Source: Hyaloperonospora brassicae (lineage: Eukaryota > Oomycota > Peronosporomycetes > Peronosporales > Peronosporaceae). From it: a stretch of 64,000 nt of DNA. The notes beneath the pieces were generated by a model, which was not told the origin of the DNA, ran no database searches, and saw nothing but the letters and a program-made list of their open reading frames with translations. A program made the translations under genes and the position numbers. The DNA lies in the NCBI GenBank assembly GCA_947650285.1, contig CANTFL010001446.1, positions 416,001-480,000 of the forward strand, given 5' to 3'. This document shows positions 14,103 to 53,068 of the stretch, one piece after another. How positions within the stretch are numbered: position 1 is the first letter of the stretch; every line of letters starts with the position of its first letter.

Positions 14103-14572
14103 TGTAACGGGTCACGTTCTTGCTCGAAGAACTGAGCAAGGCCTTGTGTTGATCAGAATACATGGGTGCTTACGCCGGACGGCACATACACTTGGCGTGA
14201 GGAAGCGCGACCAAGTTAATACAGGACCCGAAAGCTCAGTCTTGATGGAAAAGAAGAACTGTTATTTAATATAGCTATTTCCTAGCTAAATCGTCTTTCG
14301 TATTATTCTGACTATATTAAACTACTGTCTTCTTTGTGGGTCTTCTGTCCACCACCTATTGCGCGCGTCCAGCAGCGGTTGGTGGTTAAATTGATTGAAG
14401 TACACGGTACATCAACCAAGAAGTGAACCCCTCCACGGATATTACCCTTTTAGGTAATATTCCGACAAGATCACTTTTCTCGAGTGATGCTGATTGATTA
14501 TTATCAAAATAGATAATATTCAAAAATTGCTACTTTCGTATCATTTTTTTGTAATGGGTTCACCTCGTTACA
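14103..14572. repeat. solo LTR of a Ty3/gypsy family, 470 bp
   Basis: Begins TGTAACGGGTCA and ends CCTCGTTACA, flanked by the 5-bp duplication GATAT (14,098-14,102 and 14,573-14,577). It shares the internal landmarks attgcgcgcgtc and the inverted TGTAACGGG termini with the LTRs at 24.4 and 32.0 kb, but is clearly diverged from them. No internal retrotransposon sequence remains, so it arose by LTR-LTR recombination. It interrupts the minus-strand host gene described above. Confidence 0.85.
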
Positions 14573-15199: not shown

Positions 15200-15455
15200 T
15201 CAAATTCGGAGATTTATAGCTACACACTCACCCTTGGACACGTATTAAGACCCCTGAAATAGCGGTCCTTCTTTAAATACATAACATCCTAAATTAAGTG
15301 ATGCACACTATACATATTTAGATTTGTACACACGTCTCCTCAATACAGGACTCTTTTGTGTCAGCACACAGCCTTGTGTATGAGATCCGCTCTCATTATC
15401 CGGTACACCTCCCAATAAGAACCCATAATACTACCATTTCTCCTATTTTATAATG
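15200..15455 (-). repeat. left arm of a large inverted repeat (LTR-like)
   Basis: The segment is an imperfect reverse complement of 16,420-16,710. Matching blocks in order include gacccctgaaatagcggtcc, gactcttttgtgtcagcaca, ctcattatccggtacac and aatactaccatt. Identity is roughly 70-75 percent by eye with small indels. Confidence 0.7.
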
Positions 15456-16419: not shown

Positions 16420-16710
16420 GAGCGCTATTTATAAAAGGAAAATGGTAGTATTAGGGTTACTTTTTGGGTAGTGTACCGGATAATGAGAGTGGATTTCATA
16501 CGCAATGCTTTGTGCTGACACAAAAGAGTCATGTATTACGGAGGTGTGTGTACAAAGCTAAATATATTTATGTGCCATTTTGTATGTATAAGTGTGCAGT
16601 ACTTCGTTAAAAGGTTACGGCACTTATATAAGGACCGCTATTTCAGGGGTCTGTGAACGTGTCAAAGGGGTAGTGTGTACCCATAAATCTTTTGAAATTT
16701 AGTTTTCATT
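16420..16710 (+). repeat. right arm of a large inverted repeat (LTR-like)
   Basis: Reverse-complement partner of 15,200-15,455. It abuts the LTR that ends at 16,956 and may be the 5' part of that same LTR (a candidate start TGTATTACGGAG lies at 16,534). In that case the left arm would be part of a second, oppositely oriented LTR. Confidence 0.65.
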
Positions 16711-16719
16711 TTGATCTGC

Positions 16720-16956
16720 GAAAGACACGTGCCTTTCTAAGGCGTCTTGCGATCGTTTGATAGTATATCATATGCGTTGTTGAGGCAGCTACTCTTAGAG
16801 CACTCTATGCTATGATTCTCGAGATCGTTTGGTTCACTGGAATAGAGAGCGGAAGATCTCTCAGCTTGCTGACTCTCAGAGTCGGGTTCTAAAACGTGAG
16901 TTGCTAGTAGAGCGCTAAGTCTTCATCTGACTTGGAAGCTGTGTATCTCCGCTACA
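16720..16956 (+). repeat. 5' LTR of the decayed gypsy element (end well defined)
   Basis: Ends gtgtatctccgctaca. The last ~130 bp match the 3' LTR (shared blocks ctctcagcttg, gactctc.gagtcgggttct, gagttgct.gtagag, gctaagtctt). The start is approximate. Confidence 0.6.
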
Positions 16957-16958
16957 CT

Positions 16959-16973
16959 TGGTAGCACTTGTAG
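16959..16973 (+). other. primer-binding site of the decayed gypsy element
   Basis: TGGTAGCACTTGTAG starts 2 bp after the LTR end (gap CT). It begins with TGG, as expected for pairing with a tRNA 3' CCA end. It shares its first 11 bases with the site of the other gypsy element at 31,992. The priming tRNA is not identified. Confidence 0.6.
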
Positions 16974-17199
16974 TCATTCAACGCCTGAGTCTTTAAGAAT
17001 GATACTCTGTGAGGATGGAACAATCCACATCCCTCGCTGAGGCCCAAAAGGTCGCGCTTGATAAGCTGACCGCGGCCGTGGGCCCATAATACTTGATTTT
17101 TTCGCTGCGCAAGGTCCCGATGTGCTAAATGCACGTGTAGAGGCCTCCATGCAATTGTAAATAGCCCTTGTAGGGCAGGTACAAAATTAATCAGCGTCG

Positions 17200-20100
17200 G
17201 CTATGCCAACACGATTTGTGGAAATGCCAACCGAAGAGGCTAAGCCCTGTTCACTTCGGGTGGAATTCAAACATTTTTCCGGAAAGATGGGAGAAATTAT
17301 CACCCTCTGGATCCATGAGATTGAGATGGTCATGAGATCGGGATAAATATCACTGGAGCATCAGCGAGCCTCGATGGTCATCTCTAAGCTCGATGGAAGA
17401 TCTAGAGAGTGAGCTCTGACGAGTGGCACGTCTGTAGACTTGACGTCTCCCACATGTTATTAGCTCATGTTGGACGTGTTAAGGGTTTATCGCCGCCTAA
17501 CCTGGCTTATCGCGTGCGCTCACGCTTCTTGTCTACCCGTCAGGGTAAGAGTAAGTTAACGGACTATGTCCGAGAGTTGAGAACTCTAATGATGGCTATG
17601 CAGTCCGACCCTCTACGTGAGATAGTCTATGTGACTGTCTGCATGGAAGGTCTTCGCACTGGCGTAGACAAACCGAAGTCCTTTGGATCCTTTCCCTTAC
17701 TTTTGAAGAAGCTGTGAGCATTGCTTAGAATGCTTAGCACAACTTCAAGTCGGCCATAATTGGTTGGAATAGGTACAACCCAAAATTTGCGGGGACAACC
17801 TTAGCAAACACGTCGGCTTACTGCAGGCCTGAACCGATAGATCTCAGCCATGCTGAAGATGAAGGTGAAAATGAACTTCAGGTTGACGATCAACAACAGG
17901 AAGTGATACGTTGTTATACGTGCGGAAGAACTAAACACTTGCGTCCCATTTGTTCTTCGCGCAACCAGCGCCAGACCAATGTGAGTCAAAACCCGGGCTT
18001 CCACTAGAAATCTGGTATGGCATGGTGAAACGTCAATACCCAGTAGTCGCAGGGTGCCCTACTGGGATAGAACTAGGTTCTTTCACAGCTCCACGAGGCA
18101 GCAGAAAATAGGGCTTAGCGCCACTGAGCTCTGTGCCCGTCATCACAGAGCGTTGATACAAGCTTGGATTTAATTTCGCCGAGGCGACAGTGAAAATATT
18201 CGAGAAGCAATGGTCGATATTTAATCGATCTAGCCGCTTCATGCAATTATGCTTGATAACATTCCCTTGAGAGGAGTGAGCGATACACTGAAGCGCTTAT
18301 AGAGCATGAGGGTGGCTCAATCACCGTTTGTTTAGCGAATAGTAGTCGCGTTACTGTACCGAGAGTTACGTTGAGTTTAGGTGTGAAGTTTTTGGACTTT
18401 GACACCATTGGACGAAGCCTTTTTCTCGAAGTAGATTCGAGATATGATCTTATCCTTGGTATGATCTGGCTAGAACGCAATGAGCCATGGATTGATTGGA
18501 GATCTAAGACCTTAGGCGAACGCGCACAGTTACTAATGAAGTGTGGAGATTCATAAACCCATCTAGTCTAGGCAACAAAAGCACTAAAGTCGCGAACCAT
18601 TAGCATCGGATGTCAACGTGTTGGACATTGGTATGTCCGAATGAAGTAACTTTCATGTCAATGACATAAAAATTGAGCGGAGATTTTTCACCGTATGTGA
18701 AGCAATTTGTACTCCGTTGAGTGATACTCGTTGTGATAATGAGTCACTGCATGCTACAGGCATGGTTGGCCTAGGGCAGAGACATCAAGAATGTAATTCC
18801 TCTGATGTGAGTGGGGTGGCGTGTCAAATTACACAGAGTGAGGGTGGCCGTGATGGCACCTCACTGAATGTCGGTAATGACATTGATGGCGAGAAGCTAG
18901 AGTGTTCAGGGCTGGGCCAGGATGCTATACGTGAAGTGGTTGTGTAAATCCGCTTGGTGAAGTGTTCGAGTTACGTAACACTTCACCAGATGTCGTTCAA
19001 GACATGAGCTCTCGTACAGAGCGTGCTATTATAAATAGCAAACACGGGGACCCTATTTTCCCGGCCTCTAGGATGAGTAAGGTTTCTGTGAGGAAACAAT
19101 CCCGGCATCGGGTGGCAACTGTTCAGCGCCCAAAGTCTAAGAAGTCACGAAGTGATATTAGTAATAATACACTATATACACTTGTCAATGAGTTGACTGG
19201 CCAGATTGATGGCAATACTAGTCTTGAGACTCTTCCATCCTTGGATACTCTCTTTGAACTAGACGAAATGTCTGACGGCGAATTTAGCCAAGCCTTACAG
19301 GCAGGAGAATAATCCGAGTTAGTGGTCATTCGGCCTGATATTGAGCTGAACTCATCCTCGTTATTGGACGAGTCTATCCTTGAGGACACAAAGGCGGCAT
19401 TGGATGCCCGTAGTAGATCGTCGATCCTTAAGGATCCTATTGATCATTTCCATCCTTTGGTAAAGAAGTTTCAAGACGTGGTGTGTCACAAGCCACCGTC
19501 CGCCTTACCTCCCGATAGAGGTGTACGTCATTAAATTGACTTGGTTCCTGTAGCTAAATACTGCGTAACACGGCAGTGGCCTTACCGAAGGAACAGTGCG
19601 ACGTCATTGAAGACTTCTTTCGTGCAAAGTACGCGGCAGGAATGGTACGTGAGAGCAAATCTTCCCATTCCACACCGACCTTATGTGTCAAAATACTCAA
19701 TTGAAAGTGGCGCATTGTTCATGCTTACAATGAGCTTAATGCGGCCACCACCCCGGCTCAGACACCAACTCCGAAAAAGGATGTTCTTTAAAACAAATGT
19801 AGGGATGTACAATGTACAGTGAGCTCGACTTGGTCGATGGATATTACCAGCTGTTCATGCGAGAAAGCGATATTCCGCTGACAGCGGTCAGCACTCCGAG
19901 CGGTATGCTCTGGGAGTGGCTTGTTATGCCACAAGGGAAATCAAATGTTCCGGCTACACTCAATTGTCTGGCAATGAAATTGTTCAGACCTCACAGAGGA
20001 TATGCACAGACGTACTTTAATGACGTCTTTGTCCATAGTCGTGCTATGAACGGTCGGTCAGATGTACAAAATTACATTGACCATTTGTGAGCGGTGCTCG

Positions 20101-22600
20101 AGTGCATGCGCACGAATAAGTTGTACGCCAACGCGTCCAAGTGCATCTTTGATGCAGAAGAGATTATTTTTAGGGTGATTCATTGATAGGCGAGACCCTA
20201 AAGCGGACCCCGCTAAGGTAAAATCCATAATTGATTTGCCGGTTCCAAAGAACCACAAGGACTTACGTAAGTGGCTTGGCGTAAGTTGCCGATTACTTAC
20301 ACAAGTATAGTGCGAACTAAGCATATATGGATAGGCAATTATTCAATCTCCTTAATAAGGATTTGGAGTGGTGATGGACGAGCACCAAGCATGTTGCTTT
20401 TCAAGCAGTACGAGAGGGTTCAATAATGCACCAATCTTGGCTTTGTACGATCCTGATCGACCTTTCATTGTCGTCCTTGATGCATCTGTTTTGACTTTGG
20501 CCGTGATCTGTTACAAACAGATGTCGATGGACGGGAACGCGTCATTTGTTTGAGTCCCGACAGCTGAAAGCTGCTGAAAAGAAATATCCAGTTCATACTA
20601 AAGATCTACTTGCAATGAAGTATGCTATAGTCAAATTCAGAGTTCATATGATTGGCTCTAAGCCATTTGTGATATATACCGATCATGCGTCACTACGCAC
20701 TGCAACCCGGTCGCTTCATTGCTCTCAGACAATGGATCGTTGGATTTCATTCTTCGCCGAATAAAATATCAAGATGAAGTATAAGCCGGGGAATTAGAAT
20801 ACTTTGGCTGATGCGATGTGTCGCAGGCCTGATTATGAGCGTGATCATATGACGACTCTCCGTCGTCAGTAACTGACCTCATACGTAAATCATACGACAA
20901 GGGTGAACACTGTGTATCTCTGCTACGTGCTCTTGGGACCGACGAGTTCAAGGATTGAAACATAGAATTGTCAGCACGATCAAGTGCGAGACTACATATA
21001 TATTTCGTCGATCGAGGCCTTTTGTTTTATAGCAGGGATGTTGAGGACAATCCTAAGACCGTTGTCACTCATGATGAGGTGTTTCAGAATAGGATCTTAT
21101 GAGGCACATGATACTGCGTTGAGCGGTCATCTCGGTCGTGAGAAGACCTATGGCTCATTTGTCCAATGATAATGGTGTCCGAAGCTCTATAATTGGATCA
21201 GCACTTATGTGCGCACGTGTAAAACGTGTCAGCCGGTGAAATCATCAGCCCACGCGTCAGCACCGCTATCTAGTTTGCCTGCACCCTCTGGGTGTTGTAA
21301 GTCCATCAGCATTGACTTTTTTTCGATATGTCGAGGGATTCTTATGGCATTGTGGTCTTTGTTGACCGTTTGAGAAAGACGTCTCATTTAGCGGCGGTGC
21401 CAGACTCTATCGGTGGTGAAAGCACAGCTACGCTGCTTATCTATCGAGTGTTTTGACAACACGGTTTGATTTTGGCAATTATCTCGGATAGATATCCTCG
21501 GGAAATTTTGGAAGTCCGTCTTCAAGGTACTCGGCACACGTTTGGGCATGTCCACAGCAAATCATCCGCAGATCGATGTTCAAACCGAGCGAGTGAATTG
21601 CATTGTCGGTGACATCTTGCTCATTGTTTGCGCTGAAATGCCGAAACGTTGTAGATCGATACTTCCTGTGGTTGAGTTTGCGTTGAACAAAGCCATTCAT
21701 GCCTCCACCGGCTCCACACCATTCTACGTGAATGGTCTCACAAACGCTCGCGTTCCATTGACGCTACCATTCCGTGGTTCAGGTCTTGGTGAAGACGGAG
21801 TTGCCGATTGACTTGCTAATATCAGCACTGCTAATTTCCCAAAACAGGTAAGCAAGTTTCTCGCAACGTTATCAAATGTCCTACGACATGGGCGTGACGC
21901 ACTGTCTGATAGCTAAGACAGACAAAAGTAACAAGCAGATGCCACAGGCAGAGATTGTATTGAACGTTATCAGGTCGGAGACCAAGTGTTACTCAATTCT
22001 AGAACCTACCGACAAATGTAGTATCCGCTATCTTCAAGACAAAGTTGCGTCCGCGCTTTATTGGACCATTCTTGGTCGCCGTTAAGGAAGAACTTGCGTA
22101 TACGTCAAATATTCCGCGCAAACGGCGCACCGAGACTGTGATCTACATTGACATACCTAAACCATATCGGGATCCGTCCCACGTGAACTTGAAGGCGCTT
22201 GTGCCGCGACATTAAGCATTGCCCTCGGCTGCTATATCCGAACCAGGATGTCAAGCTGAGCCTCCGTCCGGGTTTGACCCATCTCCACCGTCTGAAGACG
22301 AGCCTGCGTCGCGTTGAGCGCACCCTGGATTTTATCCAAGGTATCGCGGATACAACTTACTTCGTGACGCAGCTTCTCATGCTCGTCCTTCGGTTTACCG
22401 CCCACCAGCGACGCTGCTCGATGAGCAAGAAAACCGCCAGTTCCATGTGGAGAAACTCCTGAAACAACGTCGTCGTCAGGATCAATATTAGTATCTGGTA
22501 AAGTGGAGATGGTACCCGAAGCTGGAAATATCATGGGAGTTTGAGGTATTCCTTCGGTAGGATTGTCCATATGCCTTCGATGTTTTTGAACATCGCGGCA
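17200..22600 (+). pseudogene. decayed gag-pol of the older gypsy element
   Basis: Pieces in order: a capsid-like segment (17,200-17,720); a CX2CX4HX4C zinc knuckle reading CYTCGRTKHLRPIC near 17,910-17,955; protease remnants (18,100-18,550); and a variable acidic linker (18,700-19,540). Reverse transcriptase follows (19,550-20,330), whose catalytic box reads YFND at 20,013-20,024 instead of YFDD. RNase H (20,430-20,830), integrase (20,980-21,800) and a chromodomain reading FHVEKLLKQ…YLVKWRWYP near 22,440-22,550 complete it. More than a dozen stops and frameshifts are visible. It is closely similar to pol of the 24.4-32.4 kb element. Confidence 0.8.
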
Positions 22601-22846
22601 AGGCTCTTCCTGCGACCATGAACGCTTCTCACAAATAGTTGTAGAAGCAGGTAGGTTGCTAGTCATCGCTTGGCCGGAACTCACAACTGTCGGCACAGCC
22701 GGACTGTAGCGGGTGCAAGTTCGCAATCCATCTCTGGCCTTGAGATCGTCGTAATCATACCGAAGCTTTCGTTCTCGACGAACTTCTGCCACATCGGCAC
22801 TTGCTATTAGAGCTACCACGCTGCTAAGGTGTCGTTTTCGATACAC
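22232..22846 (-). other. open antisense frame over the chromodomain end of pol
   Basis: This frame is open for 204 codons on the strand opposite to the decayed pol, between integrase and the 3' LTR, and covers the chromodomain. It has no ATG at its upstream end. The end of the predicted protein is helical and coiled-coil-like (HEKLRHEVSCIRDTLDKIQG and following). In an element whose sense frames are shredded, an open frame this long is notable. It sits in the same place as the antisense frame of the other gypsy element. It may be chance. Confidence 0.4.
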
Positions 22847-22899
22847 CCATCAAACAAACGCATTGTCCTATTCCTCCTATGATTCGCCTGCGAATAGGA

Positions 22900-23156
22900 A
22901 GATGGGTATAGCCTTGATCGTTGGAAACAGCGCATCCCGTGCTTGCGTGTCAAGTCGCAACTTGTATTGACTTTGAGTTGTCAAACAAGGCTCCTGGTAC
23001 TTCTCGCAAGGTGACTGTCGTCTCGCAACCCCTTCAGGGGGATGCCCGTCATATCTCTGAGCTTGTTGACTCTCTGAGTCGGGTTCTTTGAACTCAAGTT
23101 GCTCGTAGAGAGCTAAGTCTTTCAGTGGCTTAAGAAGATGTGTAGCTCCGCTACAT
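22900..23156 (+). repeat. 3' LTR of the decayed gypsy element (end well defined)
   Basis: Ends gtgtagctccgctaca, matching the 5' LTR end. The start is approximate; the first half is poorly alignable. Confidence 0.55.
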
Positions 23157-23661: not shown

Positions 23662-24104
23662 TGTAACGGGGCACCGACGACTACGTACTATAAAACCAGT
23701 ACGGAGATAACCTTTCACTGACAACAGTGAAGGTTAGTGCCCAGCTAGGTGTAAACACCTACGTAGAGACAGGTAACGACTAAGGTAAAATCTCTAGTCG
23801 TAGTAAAATTAAAACATTTATTTAGTACACTTAAGTCCTAATACTCTTGGTTCTCTTGTTCATCGTGACTTAATTCTATTACTCTAACTAAACGTATGAT
23901 GATGTCTACTTACCACCCATTGCGCGCGTCTAGCAGCGATTGATGATTTGATATCATCTCAATATCAACTAATGAGTAGACCCTTCGGTCATCTCAACAA
24001 TATTACTATGCTTAGTGATATTGTTAAAAGAATGTTCAACGTAATATTCTCTCTTGTCATTTTCTTCTTTATGACAATGTCGTGTAACGGGCTACCCCGT
24101 TGCA
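23662..24104. repeat. solo LTR related to the complete gypsy element, 443 bp
   Basis: Starts TGTAACGGGGCACC and ends GGGCTACCCCGTTGCA. It is flanked by the 5-bp duplication TAAAG (23,657-23,661 and 24,105-24,109). Shares the central attgcgcgcgtctagcagcg block and the gatattgttaaaagaat block with the 24.4-kb LTR, but differs in its first 200 bp. It inserted only about 290 bp from the complete element. Confidence 0.85.
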
Positions 24105-24395
24105 TAAAGAGCAATATTGCTGTGCAAATTGTGCCATCGCCATGGCTGCAGGTGGATTGACCCAATGCCTGCGTTAGAGTATCGGCAGAGCCGGCGAGAT
24201 CTTTGCCCACCGAACGTGCCGACGCTTGTGTGCGTGGTGTAGTCTAGTTCAGCCTATCAAAATTGACATATCATGGCTCTCAGGTTCTGACCAGCCGATG
24301 GCAGATAGTCGTTGAGTCAGTTTCGCAGCTGTGAACAGCCAGCACATCCCTAAGATTACGGCTGTCGCTGGCTGCTGTATGGCATGAGCTATTAC

Positions 24396-24789
24396 TGTAA
24401 CGGGGCACACCCTTGCGTGAACTTAACGCAAGGGTTTTGGTGCGCCCGACAGACGTACACGAGGCAAACGAGGAAGCGTAGATAAGGGAAAAGTAGAACT
24501 GTTATATTAATATAATTAAGTCTTTTTGTCACTGTCTCTCTGTTTGACTTAACTGATTTTAACTAAACTAACTGAGTGTATGACGACGTCTACCCACCAC
24601 TCATTGCGCGCGTCTTGCGGCGATTGGTGGGTTAACAACGTCAAGATATCAACCAATGAGCAGACTCTTTGGTCGACCCATCAATTCCACCACCATTGGT
24701 GATATTGTTAAAAGAATATTCAACATAATATTCTTTATTGTCATTATCTTCTAAATGACAATTTCCATGTAACGGGCTGCCCCGTTACA
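24396..24789 (-). repeat. 3' LTR of the complete gypsy element, 394 bp
   Basis: TGTAACGGGG…CCCCGTTACA. It contains perfect stem-loops at 24,410-24,434 (9-bp stem) and 24,768-24,789 (9-bp stem, the LTR end itself). Any antisense transcription from this LTR would run into the plus-strand frame that begins at 24,920. Confidence 0.93.
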
Positions 24790-24802
24790 TCACCCCCCTT
24801 AA
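24790..24802 (-). other. polypurine tract
   Basis: On the element's strand the sequence just upstream of the 3' LTR reads AAGGGGGGTGA, immediately before TGTAACGG. This is the expected plus-strand primer position. Confidence 0.75.
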
Positions 24803-24919
24803 CTGATAGTCACCGTGTGACTATCAAAAATCTGGCGGCCACCCATTGGGCACTATTGGAACAGGGAGCACTTGTTGGGTCCGTTTCATTCACTTTTCGC
24901 TTGACCTCGCATATTTAAC

Positions 24920-26529
24920 ATGTCTATGCGAGGTGACTCAAGACCCGCACAGCCCGCTGCTGTGCCAGCCTTTGCGGCAGACGTTTCGTCTTCTACTGCT
25001 CGTTCTTCGCCTGCAGCAAGAGGTACTGCAGGTGCACGCGGTACAGCACCGCGTGCGCATGTTGACCCCGACATTGAGGTCATCAACTCTGGCGAGTCAG
25101 ACGTGTCTGACTCGGGCAATGCAGAAGAGGCGTCTCGATCACCGGCGACGCCTAAGTATTTGCCAAGGCCACTGCCGAACGAACGGACTCTTGAGTTGCA
25201 TCACAGTCTGTTCGGAAGTGATGATGAAGGTGATCAGAGTGGTGAGGAGTATTACTCCTTACCACCGCCGACTCGTGCCTCTTCGCACGAGCGTGATGAC
25301 GATGTCGTGAGCCGTCGTCATTCTGGGAGCCGTGGTGTCGACAGAGGTACCACTTCGAAGCGTGATGAGCCGAAGCCATGGCGTCTTCCCGAACGGCTCA
25401 TCAATGGCTTGTCTCACGAGACAAGCCCACACCATTGAATACCCTTATTCGATGCGACTGAGCTTCACGTCTTAAGTTCCAGCGCGAAGAACTTTCGCGC
25501 TGAAGAAGATTCTTATCTTGATGTCTTCCTTACACATCGAAGGTACAACAGCAACCAAAAGCGTGACAAAGCCTCGCTTTTGGCTGCGTGGAACGCGTTC
25601 GTCCAAAACGTAAAGAATTTTGGACGAGAAGGGTGGCTCAAGAAACTTGAGGCAGTACACCTCAGGTTCGAAAAGTGAACGCCAACCGGTGCCAGGTACC
25701 GGTTTCACTGTTTGTCGAGTGAGGCAGACATTCCTTGCCTCACATGGGGAGACCCTTGTGCGAGTTGTGTTGACAACTCGCAGCGTGCACATAGGAACGT
25801 GTATTCCCTAATTTCGCCCTGGGGAAGGGCACACATCTCGGCTGAGATGCGTGACGCGATTGCAAACTTGCAATCCGTCTACAAGCGCCAAAGGCGCGTG
25901 TTTACCGATGGTCCCGAGGACTCATCGGATGGGTCTCGTCATACTGGCGGACGAGACCTTCAACGTCCATCAACAGCTGAGCGCGGGCTCCCAGATGTTC
26001 CAAGAGGGTGGATACCCCCGCCACTGGACGAGGTAGCTCGTCCTTGATCCTGAATCGTCACGGTGGTTCAAGATACGCTCCACTCGAAAGCGTTGATCAC
26101 CGTGAGAATCCACCAAAGGATGTGGTGGAGGAGGAAAGACCTCCTTCAGATGATTCTGCTCACCATCTCGACCCTTACGAGATGGATCGCGCAATCGATG
26201 AATTGCGCGATGACTTAAAGCACGAGCGCGACCGGCGCTACGCTTTGACTGATACCGTGCGGAAGAACCGCAAGGATCGCGAGGCTGATCGGGCGAGAGA
26301 CCGCGCCGATTACGCCACAGCGCAGCTTCAGGTCGAGCGGGATGCCCGCTCCCTTTCCGGCGAGCTGGCGACAGCTCGCGGGGAGATATCTCGGTTGAGT
26401 TCCGAGGTATCTTATCTGCGCGACCAGACGGATCGTCTGGAGCGCGAACGCAAGAACTTGATGGATGTTCTTGAACGTGGGGGCTATCTCCATCGGAAGA
26501 AGAAGGCTCGTACCGACGGTACGGTCTGA
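24920..26529 (+). pseudogene. antisense extra ORF of the gypsy element, coiled-coil protein
   Basis: The plus-strand frame starts at ATG 24,920, 131 bp inside the 3' LTR and opposite to gag-pol. It runs in one frame to 26,047, interrupted only by TGA at 25,436 and 25,676. A second frame, 26,008-26,529, carries on with a strongly charged coiled coil (about residues 60-160 of that frame, Arg/Asp/Glu-rich, ending GGYLHRKKKARTDG, a nuclear-localisation-like tail). The N-terminal part is Ala/Pro/Ser-rich and acidic. The middle contains a protein-like block with a CASC pair near 25,755. The region 25,901-26,529 overlaps the chromodomain and linker of pol on the other strand. It was probably one protein of roughly 530 residues in the parent element. 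Function unknown. Confidence 0.6.
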
Positions 26530-29500
26530 GACTTCCCACGTAAAACGTAGGATGCGTGTGCATCTTACGTGGCAATTCGATCGTGTATGCATTGCCCTTG
26601 CGATGCAACACTCAAAATGGCCCAATGTACTTCGGCAGTAGTTTACTACTGCCGAAACTAGTGACTGCATGTCCAGGTAAGTTTACCGTAGACAGTAGTA
26701 CTAGGTCATTAACTTTATATGAAAGAACATTTGCTCTTCCATTCTTGTCTGCGTTCCGTTTCTGGCGGTCCACCGCGTTTGCGATGGAGTCCTGAACGAA
26801 ACGGACTACCGCCTCTCGAGTCAGCAGAAAGTTCTCTGCTGACTCGTTGTTTTGTCTTTCAGTGTGCTTCGTGCGCACTGCTAAGAGATTGTTCTCTTCT
26901 TCAGCGAGGGTGTCTTCTTCCTCGCTGTAATAATCGTTGACGATGCTGAATATACCAGCATCGTCATCATCATCCGATTCAAAAATAGCGTCGCCGCTAT
27001 TATTGAGGTGATCTTCTTCATCGATGTCGACCTGATCGACATCGGCATCATACGTGACGACGTTAGCGTCGACACGTGATGAGCAAGAGCCAAAACGGTT
27101 TTTGCTCGAGCGAGTCCCTCCCCCCTTATCCAAGAGTCACACTCTAGAAGGGCGGGCACACGTGGATGGCGTAAACCATTCACGTAAAACGGTGTGTGCT
27201 GTGTGGAAGCATGCACCGAATTATTGATGGCGAATTCCACCATGGGTAGGAATTCGCTCCAACTCGAAAACGAGTGGACATATCCTCGAAGGATCTCTTC
27301 GAGGACACGGTTCGCACGTTCCGTCTGACCATCGATTTTCGGATGGTCAGAAGTAGACATCTTCAATCGTGTTTCAAGAGAACGGAACACTGTTTGCCAA
27401 AATTCCGCCGTGAACCGAGGGTCACGGTCGGATACGAGCTCACGGGGCAACCAGTGGAGTCGGAAGATCGTGTCAAGAGAGACACGAGCACAGCCGGGTG
27501 CCGTGATGGACTCGGGCACTGCAGCAAGATGCACCATCTTGCTGAACCGATCAACGAACACAAGAATACCATTATTCTTGTGGTCGTCTTCGGGAAACCC
27601 GAAGACGAAGTCCATTGAAACGGACTGCCAGCACTCTGCCGGGACCGGTAGAGGCTGTAATGGTGCACGGGATGAAGGACTAGGCTTCACCCATTGACAA
27701 ACCTCGCAAGCACGTATGTACTTGCGGACAAACTGATACTGGCGGGGCCAGTAAAAGTCACGACTTACCGTGAGGTAAGTCTTTTCTCTCCCACGATGGC
27801 CACCTATTGGGGCATCGTGACACTCATACATGATGCGTAATCGCAAATCATTATGAGTGGGGACGACGACACGAGGCGTGTCGCCGTCAACGGCTGTATA
27901 ATATAACAGTCCGTTACGCGTTGTGTACCGATCCGATGAGGATCGGTACAAAGCCGGTAAATTCTTCAATGATTTACTGGATGGATGCACCAGATGATCC
28001 ATTAATCGCAGAAGATCCTTATCTTCTGCGTATGCCTTTCGTACGTCGTCAAGTAAGCTTGACGACGGAACACTGGCTGTCAGTGTCGCAACAGTGGGCT
28101 TATCCTCACTGTTGAATTGTGCGACCGGCTCGAAATCGGGCCGGCGCGAAAGCGCATCAGCGACGACGTATAGTCGTCCTGGTTTATTCTCCACGGAGAA
28201 GTTATACTCCGCGAAGAAAGACATCCACCTCGCCATTCTTTGCGAGAGGTGTGGGCTGTTTACGGCCGTGCGTAGTGACGCATGGTCCGTATAGACAACA
28301 AACGGTCTATCTCCGAGGATATAGACGCGAAACTTAGCCAGTGCGTACTTCATGGCAAGGATTTCCTTGTCATGCACTGGGTAATTGCGCTCAGCTGCTT
28401 TCAGCTGACGCGATTGATAACAGATGACGTGCTCTGCGCCATCTGCGTCAAATCGCATTACACGCACAGCCGATCGCAAAATGGCTGGCGTCACAGACCC
28501 CATGGAATGGCCTGTCCTGATCTGCAATCGCCAATATCGGCGACTGCATCAAGCTTTGCTTGATACCTTCGAAGGAACGCTGGCACTCAGCGTTCCATGA
28601 CCACTTGACATTTTTCTTGAGTAAACAAGAAAGATGTACCGTCATTTCGGCGTAGTTGCGCGAGTACTTGTTCAAGTACGCCGCTAGCCCAAGGAACTTC
28701 CTTAGTCCCTTGACATCGACTGGCACTGGCCAGTCGGTGATCGCCTTGATCTTTTCGGGATCAGGGCGTACGCCGTGTTTACCCACGATGCACCCAAGAA
28801 GTGGTATTTCGCTAGTCGCGAATATACACTTCTTGAGGTTTGCGTACAACTTATGCTTGCGCATAAGTTGAAGGACTTGACGAACGTGAGTTCTGTGAAC
28901 TTCAACGTCCGTCTTTCCGTCCATAGCCCGACTATGGACGAACACATCGTCGAAGTAACTCGGTGCGAAGTCTCGCACCGGTCTCAACAGATTTGTAACA
29001 CATCTGCTGAACGTTGCAGGGGCATTGCTCAGCCCCTGTGGCATCACTAACCACTCCCACAGCATACCGCTGGGGGTGCTCACTGCTGTGTACGGGATGT
29101 CCCGTTCACGCATGAGGATCTGATAGAATCCATCCATCAGATCCATGGACGAAAAGATGGTACTCTTTGACATACCATCTATGATGACGTCCTTTCTCGG
29201 TATCGGCGTCTGAGCCGGTACCGTTGCAGCATTCAATTTGTTGAATGCGTGCACTATCCGCCATCCTCCTGTGGCCTTTCGCACACAGAAGGTCGGAGAT
29301 CTGTGAGGGGACGTTGATTCCCTCACATGGCCCGCTGCTAAGCGATCGGCAAAGAACTTGTCGACCGCTAGTACTTGCTCACGAGGCAGTGGCCACTGCT
29401 TCATGACACAGTACTTCGAGCCCGGTTTGAGCTCGATCTCGTGTCGAGTGCCTTTGTCCTTAGGCAACTCGCAAGGTACGGATTCAGGGAACACGTCCTT

Positions 29501-30795
29501 GAATTCGATCAAATCCTTATACAAATGATTTGCCTGAAGTGACTCCCAGGATTGAGACGTGTATCGCTCAATCCGAGTCTTCTCATCGAGGACACTTTCG
29601 TCCATCGATGAGTTGCTGAGAACCCGTTCGTTCTCAGCAAATACTGTGGCCGACCGAATATCGGCCACATACTCATCCTCTGTGACGAGTATGCAGATCT
29701 GCTTGACTTTGCCACTACGTAGATCACGCAAGAAGCGTTTCGGTTCTAGCGTTGGCAACTGAGTTATCTCCGAAGTCAACTTCGGGGGCACAATCAGATC
29801 AAGCGTATAAGCGCCTACACTTGATCCGTCATTGACCAAGACGTTCAACGTCTCGGTTTCTTCTTGGGAACTTGCTTCCACAGGTTGCTGAGGGCCTGAT
29901 CCCTCAGCAAGTGACTCTTGAGTAATTCCTTCCTCAAGTACGTGGGGACTTATTCCCTCGACGTCTTCTGGCTGTGGCTGTGCAACCACAGTCAGGCACC
30001 GATCCTCTACGGTCGACTCTCCAGTCGACCTAGGATGTCCATGTTTCCCTTTGAAGGCAACAGGTTTCTTTTGTCGAAGATGCTGCCCGCTAGGCATGCA
30101 TCCATGTCCCCGTCCACTCGACTCCTTCGAGTGGTGGACCTTCGGCGCCGCATGTACTTCTGTACAGCCGCCGGGAGCTTGCTCCACAGTGTAGTGATCA
30201 ACTACACTGTGATCTTGTGCAGTCGTGCTAACGACCGTACCGCAAGTGAGGCCATCGCACTCACTCGCAGAACATCCACACGCTTGTGGACGCTCCAAGA
30301 TGTTCATCAGATGTCTATCTGATGAACAAGTGGCAGGAATCTTCACGAATCGATGCTGCCAGCTCACCCTTGACTCGTACTTTCTGAGCCAAGGTAATCC
30401 CAGGATGACATCGAATTTGTCATCTAGATCGAGTACGATGAAGTCATCATAGTAATGTTCGCCCTCTAAAGTGTAGTGGATTCCTACTACACGTTTCTCA
30501 ACGGTAATCGATGCGCCTGTTGCAAGGCGCACCGTCATCCTCGTGAGGGGAATGTCGCGCTCAACGAACTTGAGCCTACGACCCTCTAGTGACTGGCGAC
30601 GAACAAAGTTGTTCGACGCTCCACAGTCTACTAGGGCACGAAGCGACAAATCATTTGTCTCTTCCAACTTCAAGGTGATGAGAGACAAGTCATCACCATG
30701 TGCAGAGACACACAATGATTGTGTATCTGGAGCAACTTTCGTCAAGAGATTTGCAAATTCTCTTGAGGTTGCTCGATCAGTAGGGCGCTCCGCCC
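25901..30795 (-). pseudogene. pol polyprotein of the complete gypsy element, frameshifted
   Basis: The order on the minus strand is as follows. The aspartic protease has DCGASNNF (about 30,633-30,607). The reverse transcriptase has an intact YFDDVF box (28,957-28,940). RNase H has GVCDAS and the TDHASL block. The integrase has an HHCC zinc finger (CHDAPIGGH…CEVC, about 27,820-27,695) and catalytic D, D, 35, E (SMDFVFG, SDRDPRF, QTERANRVLEE). A GPF module (KYIGPF) and a chromodomain (FRVERIL…YLVQWRGYPPSW, about 26,100-25,990) complete it. Long frames are 30,745-28,448 and 28,527-26,881, then 27,133-25,970 in another frame with a TGA at 26,612. A one-base shift near 25,995 splits the chromodomain, and the frame then runs to about 25,901. 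The pol frame is open upstream into the end of gag, so expression by frameshifting at the gag end is possible. Confidence 0.9.
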
Positions 30796-31944
30796 CTACT
30801 GACCCCGACCATTTTTTGATGGCCTGCTTCGCTGTTGCGGTTTCCCAACAGCGTTGGACCTACGCTCATTCCCCATTTTGGAAAATGGTCGTTCATTTTG
30901 CTCAGTATTGTGTGGTACTGGGCGTGGAGCACTACACTCATATGCGTAGTGCCCTAACTTCTGACAGCGATTGCACTTCTGCAATCGCTTGTTGTTTGAA
31001 GAGCAAGGTCTCTCGCTTTCAACATAGCAGAGGTCCATTGGTTCTGGACCTCCGATCTCTTCTCGTCTTGGTGGACGATAAGAGTTTGAGCTAGCATGAG
31101 CCTGTCTCATGCTAAAGTCCTCCTGTTCCGCGGCTGATATCGCATCTTCCAGCGTATTCAGCTCAAGGCGGAACAGGTGGCTCCTGACGGGCCCTTCTGC
31201 GAGCCCTTGCATGAACACCGTAATCAACGTGTGTTCATGGACTGGTTTAGTAGTTATACTATTCGCGAGGAGTCGTATATGTTGAGCGTAAGCGTGCACA
31301 TCACGCTTACCCTGCTTGAGTTCCAGGAGCTCTGAACGAGCCCTGAACTCAGCCCGTGGCGGCTCAAACGTTTGTCTGAGCCGGGACTTGAAGTCATATA
31401 GCGACCTAAACACTTGTGGATCGCTACTCTCGAGCCCCAGGGACCAAGTTTTGGCACGTCCTGCCAAGTGGGTTTGAGCAAATGTGAGTTTCATTGGCTC
31501 ATCTTCGACGCGACGAGCCCTTAAGGCTCTGTCGAGTTCGACAAACCACAGTAACAGGGAGTCTTCCGGGACTCCACTGTACTTGGAGATGTCAACTTTC
31601 ATGACTTCGGGACGACGCGCATGTGCCGTCCCGCCCACAGCAGCATGGAATTGCTGCTGTCTCAACAGCTCTGTCTGTTGAGCACCTAGTTCTCTCAACT
31701 GCTCGGCCTGTTGAGAGCCTTGCTGGTGAAGCAAGACCACTTTCTCCCTTTCGGCGACAAGTTCATTTTGAATGAAATTTGCTATAGCGGCATGTTGTTG
31801 GTCTCTGTCTAGAGACTCCAACATGGCGCTAATGGCGAACTCGCCTACGGTAGAACTCATTCGTTCTACCGCACTCCATTTGATGTCACTCAAATGGTTA
31901 AACCCTTCACGCGTGGCGTGAAAGGTCTCTTGATCATCCAACAT
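30796..31944 (-). CDS. gag polyprotein of the complete gypsy element
   Basis: 382 codons from ATG 31,944, intact. The N-terminal third is a helical, glutamine-rich coiled coil (about residues 50-105). It is followed by a retrotransposon-gag capsid domain (about residues 115-290: DISKYSGVPEDSLLLWFVEL, then FAQTHLAGRAKTW). A CX2CX4HX4C zinc knuckle CNRCQKLGHYAYEC follows near residue 330, and the tail is basic. It packages the RNA in virus-like particles. The stop is followed by the pol frame, which overlaps in a different frame. Confidence 0.9.
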   Translation of the reverse strand: MLDDQETFHATREGFNHLSDIKWSAVERMSSTVGEFAISAMLESLDRDQQHAAIANFIQNELVAEREKVVLLHQQGSQQAEQLRELGAQQTELLRQQQFHAAVGGTAHARRPEVMKVDISKYSGVPEDSLLLWFVELDRALRARRVEDEPMKLTFAQTHLAGRAKTWSLGLESSDPQVFRSLYDFKSRLRQTFEPPRAEFRARSELLELKQGKRDVHAYAQHIRLLANSITTKPVHEHTLITVFMQGLAEGPVRSHLFRLELNTLEDAISAAEQEDFSMRQAHASSNSYRPPRREEIGGPEPMDLCYVESERPCSSNNKRLQKCNRCQKLGHYAYECSAPRPVPHNTEQNERPFSKMGNERRSNAVGKPQQRSRPSKNGRGQ

Positions 31945-31975
31945 GTTTATGTTGGATGCTGTGGTCCTTGGAAGG

Positions 31976-31992
31976 ACTACAAAGTGCTACCA
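31976..31992 (-). other. primer-binding site of the complete gypsy element
   Basis: On the element's strand, after the 5' LTR and two extra bases (CC), the sequence reads TGGTAGCACTTTGTAG. The first 11 bases are identical to the site of the older element at 16,959. It would pair with a tRNA ending AAGTGCTACCA; the tRNA is not identified here. Confidence 0.7.
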
Positions 31993-31994
31993 GG

Positions 31995-32387
31995 TGTAAC
32001 GGGGCACACCCTTGCGTGAACTTATGCAAGGGTTTCGGTGCGCCCGACAGACGTACACAAGGCAAGCGAGGAAGCGTAGGTAGGGTAAAAGCAGAACTGT
32101 TATATTAATATAATTAAGTCTTTTTGTTACTGTCTCTCTGTTTGACTTAACTTAATTATACTAATATAACTGAGTGTATGACGACGTCTACTCACCACTC
32201 ATTGCGCGCTTCTAGCAGCGATTGGTGGGTTAACAACGTCAAGATATCAACCAATGAGCAGACTCTTTGGTCGACCCATCAATTCCACCACCATTGGTGA
32301 TATTGTTAAAAGAATATTCAACATAATATTCTTTATTGTCATTATCTTCTAAATCACAATTTCCATGTAACGGGCTGCCCCGTTACA
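31995..32387 (-). repeat. 5' LTR of the complete gypsy element, 393 bp
   Basis: Same termini as the 3' LTR; about 20 differences between them by eye, clustered in the first 240 bp. Followed by the target duplication ATTAC. Confidence 0.93.
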
Positions 32388-32392
32388 ATTAC

Positions 32393-51139: not shown

Positions 51140-51739
51140 GTTCAGTTCGTACTCTCTCGCTCGCTCGCTCTCTCTCTCTCTCTCTCCTTCTTCTTCGCTC
51201 CTCTCTGTGCCGCACGCGCGCTGGCGGTTCAGTGGCTCGTGCAAAAGTGGACGCGAGCAGCGCGAGGCCCCCACGAAACCCACGAACCCACAAACCCGCT
51301 CAGCCTGCGGCTCCGAGCGCGTGCGCGAGTCGAACGACCTTCGAGCCACATCCACGTGCACGCCATGTCCAGCGCTTCAAACCCGCTTCACCGAAAACAA
51401 GCTGCTTTTTTTCTCCGTGCGCAACCGCTTTTTCTATCTTTCCTGATTCGGCCGGTCGGCCGGCCGATCGACAGTGGGTCTGGTGCGCACACAGATGTGG
51501 TGGTGGTGGGTCCCTACCGAACGGCCCACCCACCAGTCGACTGAACCCGCGCGTGTATCTGTTTCTACGCACGCGCCGCCACCCCATATGTGCACCACAC
51601 CAACGCCCAGCGGGTTCGACCTGCCCGAGAGTATGCCAAAAGGGGGGGGGGACCCCGCGCCACAACGAGCGCGCGCGCGCGAAAAGAACACGAGAGCAGA
51701 GCCATTGCCCGCCCGTCCGCCCTCTCGACGTACCCACCG
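51140..51739. promoter_or_regulatory. divergent intergenic region with CT-rich tract
   Basis: A (CT)n/(CG)-mixed tract at 51,148-51,187 lies upstream of QCR9. The rest is GC-rich with overlapping frames on both strands but no supported gene. Confidence 0.45.
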
Positions 51740-53068
51740 ATGGCGCCACCTGTTGCTACCGGTAAGCGACGGCGGCCCGCGAGTGCGCTGTTGGCGCCGC
51801 CGTGTCGCCGGTCGCGCGTGGACGCCGCGGCGCTTGTGGACCCCACGACGGCATTGAAGAAGCGGCGACTGGACACGCCAAGTGCAGGAGCTGGTGGACT
51901 GGTTCAGTGCCGTTCGACGGTTGACGCAGAGGCGATAGGGCTCGGGACGAAGCGACGGCGCGGCCGTACCCCACGAAGCAAAGAGGAGGAGGACGAGGAG
52001 GAGGAGGAAGAAGAAGAAGCGGAAGAGAAAGAGACAGAGAAAGCGGCGACGACGACCAGAGCGACGTGTGAGCAGACGAGAGAAGACGAGACGGGTGTCG
52101 ACGTGGTCGGAGGCGAGTTGAAGCGACGTCGCGTGGACGGAGACGAGCGCAGTGCGGGGCGTTTGCTGCCTGCGCTCGAGGCACGGGTTGGTCTATTGGT
52201 CACTAAACAGAGGGAGTCGCCCTCGTGTGGGCGTCTGGCACGGACCCATCAACGCACGATTACAAGCGACGAAGAAAAAGACGAGGACAATACGGACAAT
52301 ACGGACAATACGGACAATACGGACAATACGGGCAATACGGACAATACGGACAATACGGACAATAAGGACAATACGGACAATAAGGACAAGGGCGACACGG
52401 ACGTTCGGGTCGGGGCTGGGACATCGAGTCGAGAAGTGGACGCCGTGCGGCGTCTGGACGACAGGAGAGACGACGCTGCAAGTCACGGGACTGTTGATGG
52501 CGGTCCGTCCGTGCGGCCGAGCGACGTGGCGCTGGTCGGGGGTGGGACCCCGAAACGACCCGACGACTGTGAGAATGTCGCCACTGGGGACGAGCAGACC
52601 GCGCGCGTGCACCACCGGACGTCGCTCCGGTCGGTGCAAGTGACGCCGCCGCCGTCGACGCGGATGTTGGACCGGAAGAACCCGCCGCCGCCGCCACGGA
52701 GACCCAAGCGGCGCCATTACGGCGGCATTGTCTACGCGCGGACGTACCCGCGCTTGGCGCTGTCGCCACTGGTCGACGACTCGCCGCCGACGTCGCCGCG
52801 TGTGTTTCGTTCGCTGGAAAACGAGTTTGCGTTTGCAATGCAGGACACGCCCGAGATCCGGCCTCGAGTTCGGCCAGCGCCGCGGATGGCCCGGGGGTCC
52901 CGACGGTCCACGCGCGCTGGGGCCTCGCGCGCGCATCGGTCGTTGGCCACGCCCACGTCGACAATGGTCTTGCGGTCCCGACAGCTGAACCCGAGCTCGA
53001 GTGCAGACGGGGGCAAGCCCGAGAACCAGCGCGAGCGCGAACAACGGGACGCGCAACGCCGACAATGA
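51740..53068 (+). CDS. disordered, basic, probably nuclear protein with DNT repeat
   Basis: 442 codons from ATG 51,740 (GTG-started upstream codons ignored). No folded domain is recognised. Several KRRR/KKRR clusters suggest nuclear location. An acidic run (EEEDEEEEEEEE) lies near residues 85-95. A DNT tripeptide repeat lies near residues 183-215. A poly-Pro/KRR block (PPPPPRRPKRR) lies near residue 320, followed by YGGIVYARTYPRLALSPLVDDSPPTSPRVF, the most protein-like piece, with SP/TP sites of the kind cyclin-dependent kinases use. The coding potential is supported by one long ATG frame, although long frames also exist on the opposite strand because of high GC. Confidence 0.5.
   Translation: MAPPVATGKRRRPASALLAPPCRRSRVDAAALVDPTTALKKRRLDTPSAGAGGLVQCRSTVDAEAIGLGTKRRRGRTPRSKEEEDEEEEEEEEAEEKETEKAATTTRATCEQTREDETGVDVVGGELKRRRVDGDERSAGRLLPALEARVGLLVTKQRESPSCGRLARTHQRTITSDEEKDEDNTDNTDNTDNTDNTGNTDNTDNTDNKDNTDNKDKGDTDVRVGAGTSSREVDAVRRLDDRRDDAASHGTVDGGPSVRPSDVALVGGGTPKRPDDCENVATGDEQTARVHHRTSLRSVQVTPPPSTRMLDRKNPPPPPRRPKRRHYGGIVYARTYPRLALSPLVDDSPPTSPRVFRSLENEFAFAMQDTPEIRPRVRPAPRMARGSRRSTRAGASRAHRSLATPTSTMVLRSRQLNPSSSADGGKPENQREREQRDAQRRQ
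52286..52390 (+). repeat. 9-bp minisatellite encoding Asp-Asn-Thr repeats
   Basis: About eleven tandem copies of gacaatacg with a few variants (gacaataag, ggcaatacg), in frame in the disordered protein. Unit length keeps the frame when copy number changes. Confidence 0.9.

Follow-up and report, generated by a model that had tools for sequence, protein, structure and literature searches.

Extreme genome-scale ordered secondary structure in a Ty3/Gypsy retrotransposon family of Hyaloperonospora brassicae, possibly a shield from RNAi

Results

Identity and layout of the element

The window, a stretch of 64,000 nucleotides from the genome of Hyaloperonospora brassicae, carries on its minus strand a Ty3/Gypsy chromodomain retrotransposon of 7,992 bp. 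It belongs to a large family in this genome, here labelled family A. The element, its parts and two solo LTRs nearby are:

14103..14572, minus strand: solo LTR from a more distant relative, with a less marked excess of hairpins (mean z -2.6, 2 windows)
23662..24104, minus strand: solo LTR of the related subfamily A2, hairpin-rich too (mean z -4.75, 2 windows); LTR about 75-78% identical where aligned
24391..24395, no strand: left target-site duplication ATTAC, from the printed flanks
24396..32387, minus strand: family A element, identified by Pfam domains; hairpin-dense throughout, 69 perfect stems of at least 8 bp, MFED 40%
24396..24789, minus strand: 3' LTR (sense orientation), from the LTR alignment
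24790..25969, minus strand: region after the chromodomain, without an ORF of at least 200 aa; about 10 stems of at least 8 bp per kb
25970..26611, minus strand: C-terminal part with chromodomain (Pfam PF00385); 3 stems of at least 8 bp
26817..26846, no strand: 12-bp perfect stem, loop 6
26881..28527, minus strand: RNase H-integrase ORF (Pfam PF17917, PF17921, PF00665); 14 stems of at least 8 bp
27584..27608, no strand: 11-bp perfect stem, loop 3
28448..30745, minus strand: protease-RT ORF (Pfam PF08284, PF00078); 18 stems of at least 8 bp
29116..29144, no strand: RT-core stem of 9 bp with both arms within the well conserved stretch MDLMDGFYQIL
30301..30328, no strand: 12-bp perfect stem, loop 4
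30796..31944, minus strand: gag ORF (Pfam PF03732); 11 stems of at least 8 bp
31995..32387, minus strand: 5' LTR (sense orientation), 94-95% identical to the 3' LTR
32388..32392, no strand: right target-site duplication ATTAC, from the printed flanks

The Pfam matches on the minus strand follow the order gag, PR-RT-RH-IN expected of the chromodomain clade of Ty3/Gypsy, and a chromodomain is found at the C terminus of pol (PF00385, E 1.3e-10). Paired LTRs with TG...CA ends and the short target duplication, ATTAC on both sides, agree with the Ty3/Gypsy assignment. The zinc-knuckle match in the gag ORF is weak and below its Pfam cut-off, and the PF00665 match is slightly below its own. With the oomycete Ty3/Gypsy chromoviruses, family A shares gag, protease, RT, RNase H, integrase, chromodomain, LTRs and the 5-bp target duplication; no report of a hairpin chain in such a chromovirus was found. 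In scans of viral contig and genome contig collections no relative was found.

Hairpin density and folding energy

Perfect inverted repeats were counted with loops of 3-12 nt, overlapping hairpins being resolved in favour of the longer stem. Positions 24,396-32,387 hold 97, 69, 47 and 26 repeats with stems of at least 7, 8, 9 and 10 bp, respectively, compared to means of 4.4, 1.08, 0.32 and 0.07 (maxima 12, 6, 2 and 1) in 200 dinucleotide shuffles of the element. The preliminary description, which had listed 13 such hairpins and claimed an excess over chance, thereby proves to have understated it: all 13 are present, each stem being at least as long as given there, and the weaker examples at 25,719, 29,017 and 14,439 have stems of 8, 7 and 8 bp. 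In the remaining 56 kb of the window only 16 stems of at least 8 bp were counted, nine in 1-24,395 (shuffle mean 2.9) and seven in 34,501-64,000 (shuffle mean 5.6), with none between the end of the element and 34,501. The high hairpin density begins and ends with the element boundaries, and the host genes after 34.5 kb are, as had been claimed, without a comparable density.

Within the element every region is dense, with 4.7-10.2 stems per kb. Synonymous codon shuffles inside the four ORFs gave 0.25-0.57 stems of at least 8 bp per ORF, compared to 11, 18, 14 and 3 observed. These shuffles, together with the 3' region, which is mostly without a long ORF yet resembles the rest in density and constraint, rule out protein or codon constraint as the cause, in line with the earlier claim. 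That the hairpins fall in all codon phases was correct insofar as all three pairing registers are used, but their use is uneven: the 46 coding hairpins are distributed 19, 19 and 8, the third-with-third register being rare (p = 0.027), as would follow from a need for both arms to be coding as well. Several stems of the protease-RT ORF have both arms within residues common to most aligned relatives (AFNKLNA, PVRDFAP, FVHSRAMDG). In the 3' LTR (24396..24789), the alignment of the two LTRs shows a perfect 9-bp stem, ATTGTCATT, whose counterpart in the 5' LTR is interrupted by a single mismatch. In the one copy examined, most stems measure 6-11 bp; by loop length, the stem count peaks at 4-5 nt and reaches background beyond about 14 nt (two copies).

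Sister copies, the closest family A copies, were taken from the best 40 matches scored per DNA search. The 29 sister RT copies, from many contigs, exceed the window copy, with a median of 12.8 stems of at least 8 bp per kb (8.6 in the window copy) and 40-55 per 4 kb (35 in the window copy). Almost the whole element thus consists of consecutive short, perfect Watson-Crick hairpins closed by tight loops, and the stems recur in the sisters. Dinucleotide shuffles rule out chance and base composition as the cause. We found no point in support of chance, base composition, codon bias or an assembly artefact; given both kinds of shuffle and the high stem counts in the 29 further copies, the probability of such an origin is negligible.

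The MFED, the excess of folding energy over shuffles, was 40% for the window copy (22 fragments, minimum 14.9%), 48-51% for four RT-side and 5'-end pieces of sister copies and 36% for one 3' piece, with 0.3% for host genes, 1.7% for Copia and 30% for the RNA phage MS2 as controls. Both the window copy and the five sister pieces, at 36-51%, lie above the threshold for genome-scale ordered RNA structure, a folding energy more than 3% beyond sequence-order shuffles, in the cited part of PMC3950689.

Strand symmetry

In 38 windows from three copies, GU pairs made up 146 of 2548 pairs on the sense and 145 of 2528 on the antisense strand (5.7% each), and the folding energies of the two strands did not differ (t = 0.32). 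E. coli rRNA, used as a control, showed the expected asymmetry (t = -3.1; GU 15.4% vs 10.5%). The rRNA-like signature of selection on one strand, a wobble-tolerant and better-folding functional strand, was not found in the 38 windows. Both strands of family A fold equally well; in one 901-nt piece the sense strand folds somewhat better (z -15.4, compared to -13.4 for antisense). The symmetry also fits selection on DNA or cDNA.

Variation among copies

Variants were called shared if present in at least 4 of 30 copies in RT, at least 3 of 16 in the 3' region and at least 3 of 9 in the 5' region; of 30 LTR loci, 16 gave the 3' and nine the 5' region, while five solo or partial ones (L013, L019, L021, L028, L030) were omitted. 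Shared variants were found at 44 of 2332 stem sites, 83 of 843 loop sites and 227 of 4620 other sites, and singletons at 475, 197 and 1040 sites of the same classes. Stems hence carry shared variants about five times less often than loops, and likewise so in the mostly noncoding 3' region, whereas private, mostly post-insertion mutations occur at near-equal rates in all three classes, being slightly rarer in stems (p = 0.04 vs other sites, 0.07 vs loops). The interaction of stem/loop with shared/singleton gave p = 4e-14, a value that, like those of the other shared-variant tests, is too small because related copies were treated as independent. Since shared variants avoid stems and private ones hardly do, the transposing lineage is under a constraint on pairing that resident copies show hardly or not at all, and this constraint extends to sequence without long ORFs. 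In genome-scale ordered structure, paired sites are expected to vary less while the lineage replicates, and selection for genome structure, one of three causes proposed in the preliminary description, is supported by this pattern.

In two polymorphic stems the perfect version requires another amino acid, EFRDVF for EFKDVF (16 of 30 copies) and PFTAV for PYTAV (20 of 30); both states of such stem-changing variants occur among other relatives, which fits either direction of change. Transmitted changes inside stems gave nine GU and four AC, the direction expected of selection on sense RNA, although not significantly (p = 0.16). Other GU-vs-AC tests in stems were balanced or small; one version gave AC 17 to GU 6 for the window copy, another GU 50 to AC 35. 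In the three closest protein relatives (P0002-P0004) conservation is lower at loop than at stem residues, but this does not hold for several others (P0005, P0006, P0014), which makes this a weak test. The loops are the most variable class of sites and the tetraloops have no common motif, which rules out packaging signals in the loop sequence.

Origin and upkeep of the stems

The preliminary description had also named a template-switching reverse transcriptase. The reverse transcriptase or a host polymerase would fold back on the nascent strand and write or repair perfect inverted repeats, a mechanism described for RNA genes in the consulted portion of PMC8794818. The hairpins treated there are perfect and sharp-ended, and the stems of family A also end abruptly: past the first mismatch, pairing over positions 2-8 is 26%, about the chance level (43% at position 2). 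Loops of 4-5 nt are compatible with fold-back copying, and one of the differences between the LTRs, A vs GT at a stem base, is a complex change that lengthens the stem. However, family A differs from those RNA genes in having few or no multi-base compensatory changes and loop inversions. Paired double changes number 2-3 of about 610 in RT and 0 of 287 and 0 of 270 elsewhere, where unbiased correction predicts many, although many of these would also be removed by protein constraint where the sequence is coding. In a comparison with one old subfamily copy, one changed pair is still matched and 35 are not; no loops are inverted except for two trivial 2-nt cases, the other loop alleles being ordinary substitutions; and the polymorphic stems differ by point changes, in both arms in 3 of the 11 shown. 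As the maintaining force, template switching is disfavoured by the scarce double changes, the uninverted loops and the point changes in stems, and we consider an origin and upkeep of the stems by this mechanism unlikely, although it may act as a source of new stems.

A neutral ratchet, in which paired bases of a replication intermediate mutate more slowly and stems accumulate without selection, could in principle account for the transmitted difference between stems and loops (about 5-fold, about 7-fold inside stems) by mutation rate. Simulated 5- or 7.5-fold protection gave 2.0 or 2.5-3.7 stems of at least 8 bp per kb, compared to the sister median of 12.8, and 15-fold protection gave 9.4, in single runs that ignore protein constraint. 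The transmitted spectrum is strand-symmetric (A/G 135, C/T 129) and gives no hint of single-strand damage. A ratchet appears very improbable. Copy variation and simulation together disfavour both template-switch upkeep and the ratchet.

Related elements in the same genome

Subfamily A2 is known from one 1-kb RT piece and two LTRs. The old copy L084 (84% nucleotide identity over about 1 kb) retains 109 of the 145 stem pairs that it covers. Stem sites differ less often (40 of 291 positions) than other sites (106 of 608), which points to common stems but lies near the level expected from simple divergence of a shared sequence. The stems probably predate the split from the related subfamily.

Family B, known from two 1-kb RT pieces and a decayed copy in the window, has an RT about 61% identical in amino acids in its best stretch. 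Its two RT pieces have an MFED of 12-16% and no perfect stem of at least 7 bp, and the decayed copy has two 7-bp stems in 1 kb of RT. Twenty Copia loci contain 39 stems of at least 8 bp in 73.7 kb (median 0.27 per kb). Four related Copia loci reach 1.1-2.1 per kb and one Copia fragment has an MFED of 46%; in the seven loci listed, the stems form one or two clusters per locus and are not spread. As the two family B pieces and Copia are without such a chain, host RNAi does not push all families into the hairpin state. A host-wide DNA process is ruled out as well, since host genes and singleton mutations lack the pattern and the Copia loci are stem-poor.

Discussion

A link of the hairpins to silencing, proposed earlier, is plausible from the stem length, the strand symmetry, the Argonaute and Dicer-like genes of the host and small RNAs in a related organism. 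The H. brassicae genome contains three loci with a Piwi domain as well as Dicer-like RNase III loci, and in Phytophthora infestans Gypsy small RNAs occur in both orientations, according to the section of PMC3522703 used here. We suggest that the nucleic acid is itself the target of selection, which would keep the sense transcript self-folded along with its complement (antisense RNA and/or first-strand cDNA). Self-folding would block annealing of the two strands to each other or to siRNAs, while each helix on its own would be too short to serve Dicer well as a substrate, and the element may in this way escape RNA silencing. Shielding from RNAi would be the likeliest use of the hairpins, and for the reading as a whole, extreme genome-scale ordered structure with shielding as its likeliest purpose, we see an even balance. 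That the whole sequence of family A, coding and noncoding, is under strand-symmetric selection for short Watson-Crick hairpins, as an armour against sense, antisense and siRNA annealing even where a perfect stem requires another amino acid, is put forward more tentatively.

The same selection on pairing could serve another purpose, a compact self-folded genomic RNA and first-strand cDNA in virus-like particles, for packaging, protection or orderly reverse transcription. Strand symmetry is expected if RNA and cDNA must both fold, local hairpins with hypervariable loops suit recognition of shape over sequence, and the stems are dense in every region. On the other hand, family B and Copia manage in the same genome with far less structure, and we regard compaction as a possible but less likely purpose.

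The positive-strand RNA viruses with genome-scale ordered structure, as portrayed in the excerpts of PMC7642675 and PMC3950689 drawn on here, resemble family A in their consecutive local stem-loops with short duplexes, and in both, single-occurrence variants are evenly spread and recurrent ones avoid paired sites. Family A differs in being a DNA-borne LTR retrotransposon with perfect, Watson-Crick stems. The cited part of PMC7642675 gives an MFED of 15% for SARS-CoV-2 and 23.4% for the highest coronavirus, compared to 48-51% and 36% for the family A pieces, by similar but not identical methods. Coronavirus pairings are, in the account consulted, fast-evolving and mostly non-homologous between relatives. 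Leviviruses (MS2), like family A, show strong excess folding on either strand (z about -4.0 and -3.4 in MS2), but MS2 has 0.56 perfect stems of at least 8 bp per kb, compared to 8.6 and 12.8 for the window copy and the sister median, and its stems of at least 7 bp also span long distances, unlike those of family A.

Genome-scale ordered structure has been discussed for RNA viruses and innate sensing, being linked in positive-strand RNA viruses to persistence and reduced sensing; its carrier here is a DNA-borne retroelement. The MFED of family A is about twice the highest viral value given in the cited part of PMC7642675.

The oomycete host has, to our knowledge, no interferon system. A host with Argonaute and Dicer-like genes and without interferon would separate RNAi or packaging from interferon sensing as causes of such structure. 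The many resident copies, in which stems are not, or hardly, kept, provide a clean internal control. With one structured family beside its unstructured neighbours, the purpose of such structure becomes directly testable.

Hairpin density in the family A element

Gypsy elements in the window include:

24,396-32,387, minus strand: family A LTR retrotransposon (Ty3/Gypsy, chromodomain type) with two LTRs, a target duplication and ORFs
16,856-23,155, plus strand: decayed Gypsy element of family B, with a reverse transcriptase (RT) ~61% identical to that of family A in amino acids in the best stretch

The LTRs of the family A copy are 94-95% identical and the element is flanked by a 5-bp target duplication, ATTAC; its ORFs encode gag, protease-RT, RNase H-integrase and a chromodomain, and the nearest named protein relatives are from Peronospora, Pythium oligandrum and other oomycetes. 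The family is multicopy: a 1-kb RT query gave 2,046 first-look candidates in the genome, and the best 40 were scored.

All 13 hairpins listed in a preliminary description are present in the sequence. The element contains 69 perfect stems of at least 8 bp with loops of 3-12 nt, compared with a mean of 1.08 and a maximum of 6 in 200 dinucleotide shuffles, and 47 stems of at least 9 bp compared with 0.32. Synonymous-codon shuffles gave on average less than one stem of at least 8 bp per ORF, where 11, 18, 14 and 3 were observed in the four ORFs. Hence, the earlier claims that neither chance nor protein constraint explains the hairpins hold, as does the reported absence of a comparable density in the host genes after 34.5 kb, where 7 such stems are near the 5.6 of shuffles. 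Mean folding z per 200 nt was -5.1 on one strand of the element and -5.3 on the other (40 windows), and -0.08 and -0.02 over 34.5-64 kb (147 windows). A 901-nt RT-region piece of the window copy folds at -420 kcal/mol, compared with -285 across 20 shuffles. The gene-rich part also contains an ORF with tandem Asp-Asn-Thr-like units (51,590-53,068).

For comparison between copies, 30 RT copies of 4 kb each, including the window copy, were taken from the best 40 scored of the 2,046. The 29 sister copies carry 40-55 stems of at least 8 bp per 4 kb, with a median of 51 (12.8 per kb); the 35 in the comparable 4 kb of the window copy are read as decay. In one good copy, perfect stems of at least 6 bp and their loops make up 49% of the sequence, with stem lengths of 6 to 13 bp, mostly 6-11. 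The stems are strictly local, since counts by loop size in two copies peak at 4-5 nt and reach background beyond ~14 nt.

Folding energy in family A and other elements

Fragments of 350 nt were used to compute by how much native folding energy exceeds that of shuffled sequence (MFED). Among pieces of sister copies, three from the RT side and one from the 5' end reached 48-51% and one 3' piece 36%; the window copy had 40%. As controls, host genes scored 0.3%, 16S rRNA 4% and MS2 30.5%, and the 198 Copia fragments, drawn from 20 loci, came to 1.7%, with a single fragment at 46%. Published values include 15% for SARS-CoV-2, 7.5-10.7% for HCV and 23.4% for the highest coronavirus (PMC7642675). Four Copia loci (L063-L066) have one common cluster of short perfect inverted repeats ~13 nt apart, at ~110-640; it is limited to one place, whereas the family A hairpins are not so confined.

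Two family B RT pieces from elsewhere in the genome reached 12-16%, without perfect stems of at least 7 bp. The family B copy in the window has a weak excess (7.7% over 17.0-22.4 kb), is bounded at its two ends by similar repeats of 0.1 kb and contains a perfect inverted repeat of 12 bp at 18,955-18,988. Beside it, inverted-repeat pairs at 15,210-15,453 and 16,429-16,690, with arms (131 and 67 nt) that are ~85% complementary and 1.0-1.3 kb apart, look like a foldback or MITE-type element.

Maintenance of the stems

Singleton variants mostly arise after insertion, while variants common to several copies have passed through transposition. With one real copy per region as the reference whose hairpins define stem, loop and other sites, singletons among the copies were nearly flat (475/2,332 stem, 197/843 loop and 1,040/4,620 other sites). 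Shared variants affected 44/2,332, 83/843 and 227/4,620 sites, respectively, five times fewer in stems than in loops, with p-values that are too small as the copies are related. The 3' region, mostly without a long ORF, behaves similarly (15/574 stem and 31/221 loop sites), and stem interiors vary less than stem ends. This deficit in shared but hardly in singleton variants means that pairing matters during transposition and hardly during chromosomal residence. The simplest explanation is purifying selection for pairing, in agreement with the selection for structure proposed initially.

Template switching, in which one arm is rewritten from the other, had also been suggested and predicts the opposite of these data. 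Paired double changes were only 2-3 of ~610 in RT and 0/287 and 0/270 in other regions, and loop alleles are ordinary substitutions, the only inversions being two trivial cases of 2 nt; both observations argue against it. A single observed change resembles template switching, at a stem base in the LTRs (32,008-32,033 in the 5' LTR, 24,409-24,435 in the 3' LTR), where one replaced and one inserted base separate an 8-bp from a 10-bp stem. Under a neutral ratchet, protection of paired sites at the measured level gives too few stems, 2-3.7 per kb in single simulation runs versus the sister-copy median.

Polymorphic stems differ by point changes, on both arms in 3 of the 11 shown. In one, a pair is exchanged between G-C and A-T, the wobble and the A-C intermediate both being present, and at another site the hairpins of two subgroups differ and are shifted in register. 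Several stems have both arms in residues conserved across aligned oomycete relatives. At two sites a perfect stem requires a different amino acid: EFRDVF instead of EFKDVF (16/30 copies) and PFTAV instead of PYTAV (20/30 copies); relatives carry either residue, and the changes may have run in either direction. Hairpins had been described in all codon phases: all registers do occur, but unevenly, the one pairing third with third positions being rare (8/46 coding hairpins).

Strand symmetry

Selection on the sense strand only would tolerate G-U pairs and give that strand the better fold. This is seen in the E. coli rRNA control (G-U 195/1265 sense versus 122/1166 antisense; t = -3.1) and weakly in MS2 (t = -1.6). 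Family A has almost equal G-U counts (146/2548 sense, 145/2528 antisense) and no strand difference in folding energy in 38 windows (t = 0.32), although a separate 901-nt piece of the window copy folds somewhat better in sense. Transmitted changes inside stems favour G-U over A-C by 9 to 4, which is not significant. Given the equal counts and energies, the folding requirement looks strand-symmetric, acting on sense and antisense RNA, on RNA and cDNA, or on DNA itself.

Possible purpose of the hairpin chain

In P. infestans, small RNAs are described from Gypsy elements along their length and in both orientations (PMC3522703). Three loci with a Piwi domain are present in the H. brassicae genome, as are RNase III loci, one of which encodes a pair of RNase III domains within one reading frame, the arrangement of Dicer. 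At G000:C871:95,352-104,330, ~7 kb separates two Argonaute (Piwi-domain) loci that have identical scores and opposite orientations. Helices of 6-13 bp are below the length Dicer normally uses. Short helices on both strands would hinder the transcript from annealing to its complement and to siRNAs. We infer that the hairpin chain may confer resistance to RNA silencing. The main rival, in which RNA and cDNA are compacted in particles, accounts for the same observations. Family B, which faces the same RNAi with only 12-16% MFED in its two RT pieces, counts against a universal need for such shielding.

No description of ordered structure or hairpin chains in LTR retrotransposons was found in searches of open-licence PubMed Central papers. 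The nearest known kind is the genome-scale ordered RNA structure of viruses, of which family A shows a new and extreme form in a new carrier, with stems that are perfect, strand-symmetric and common to copies.
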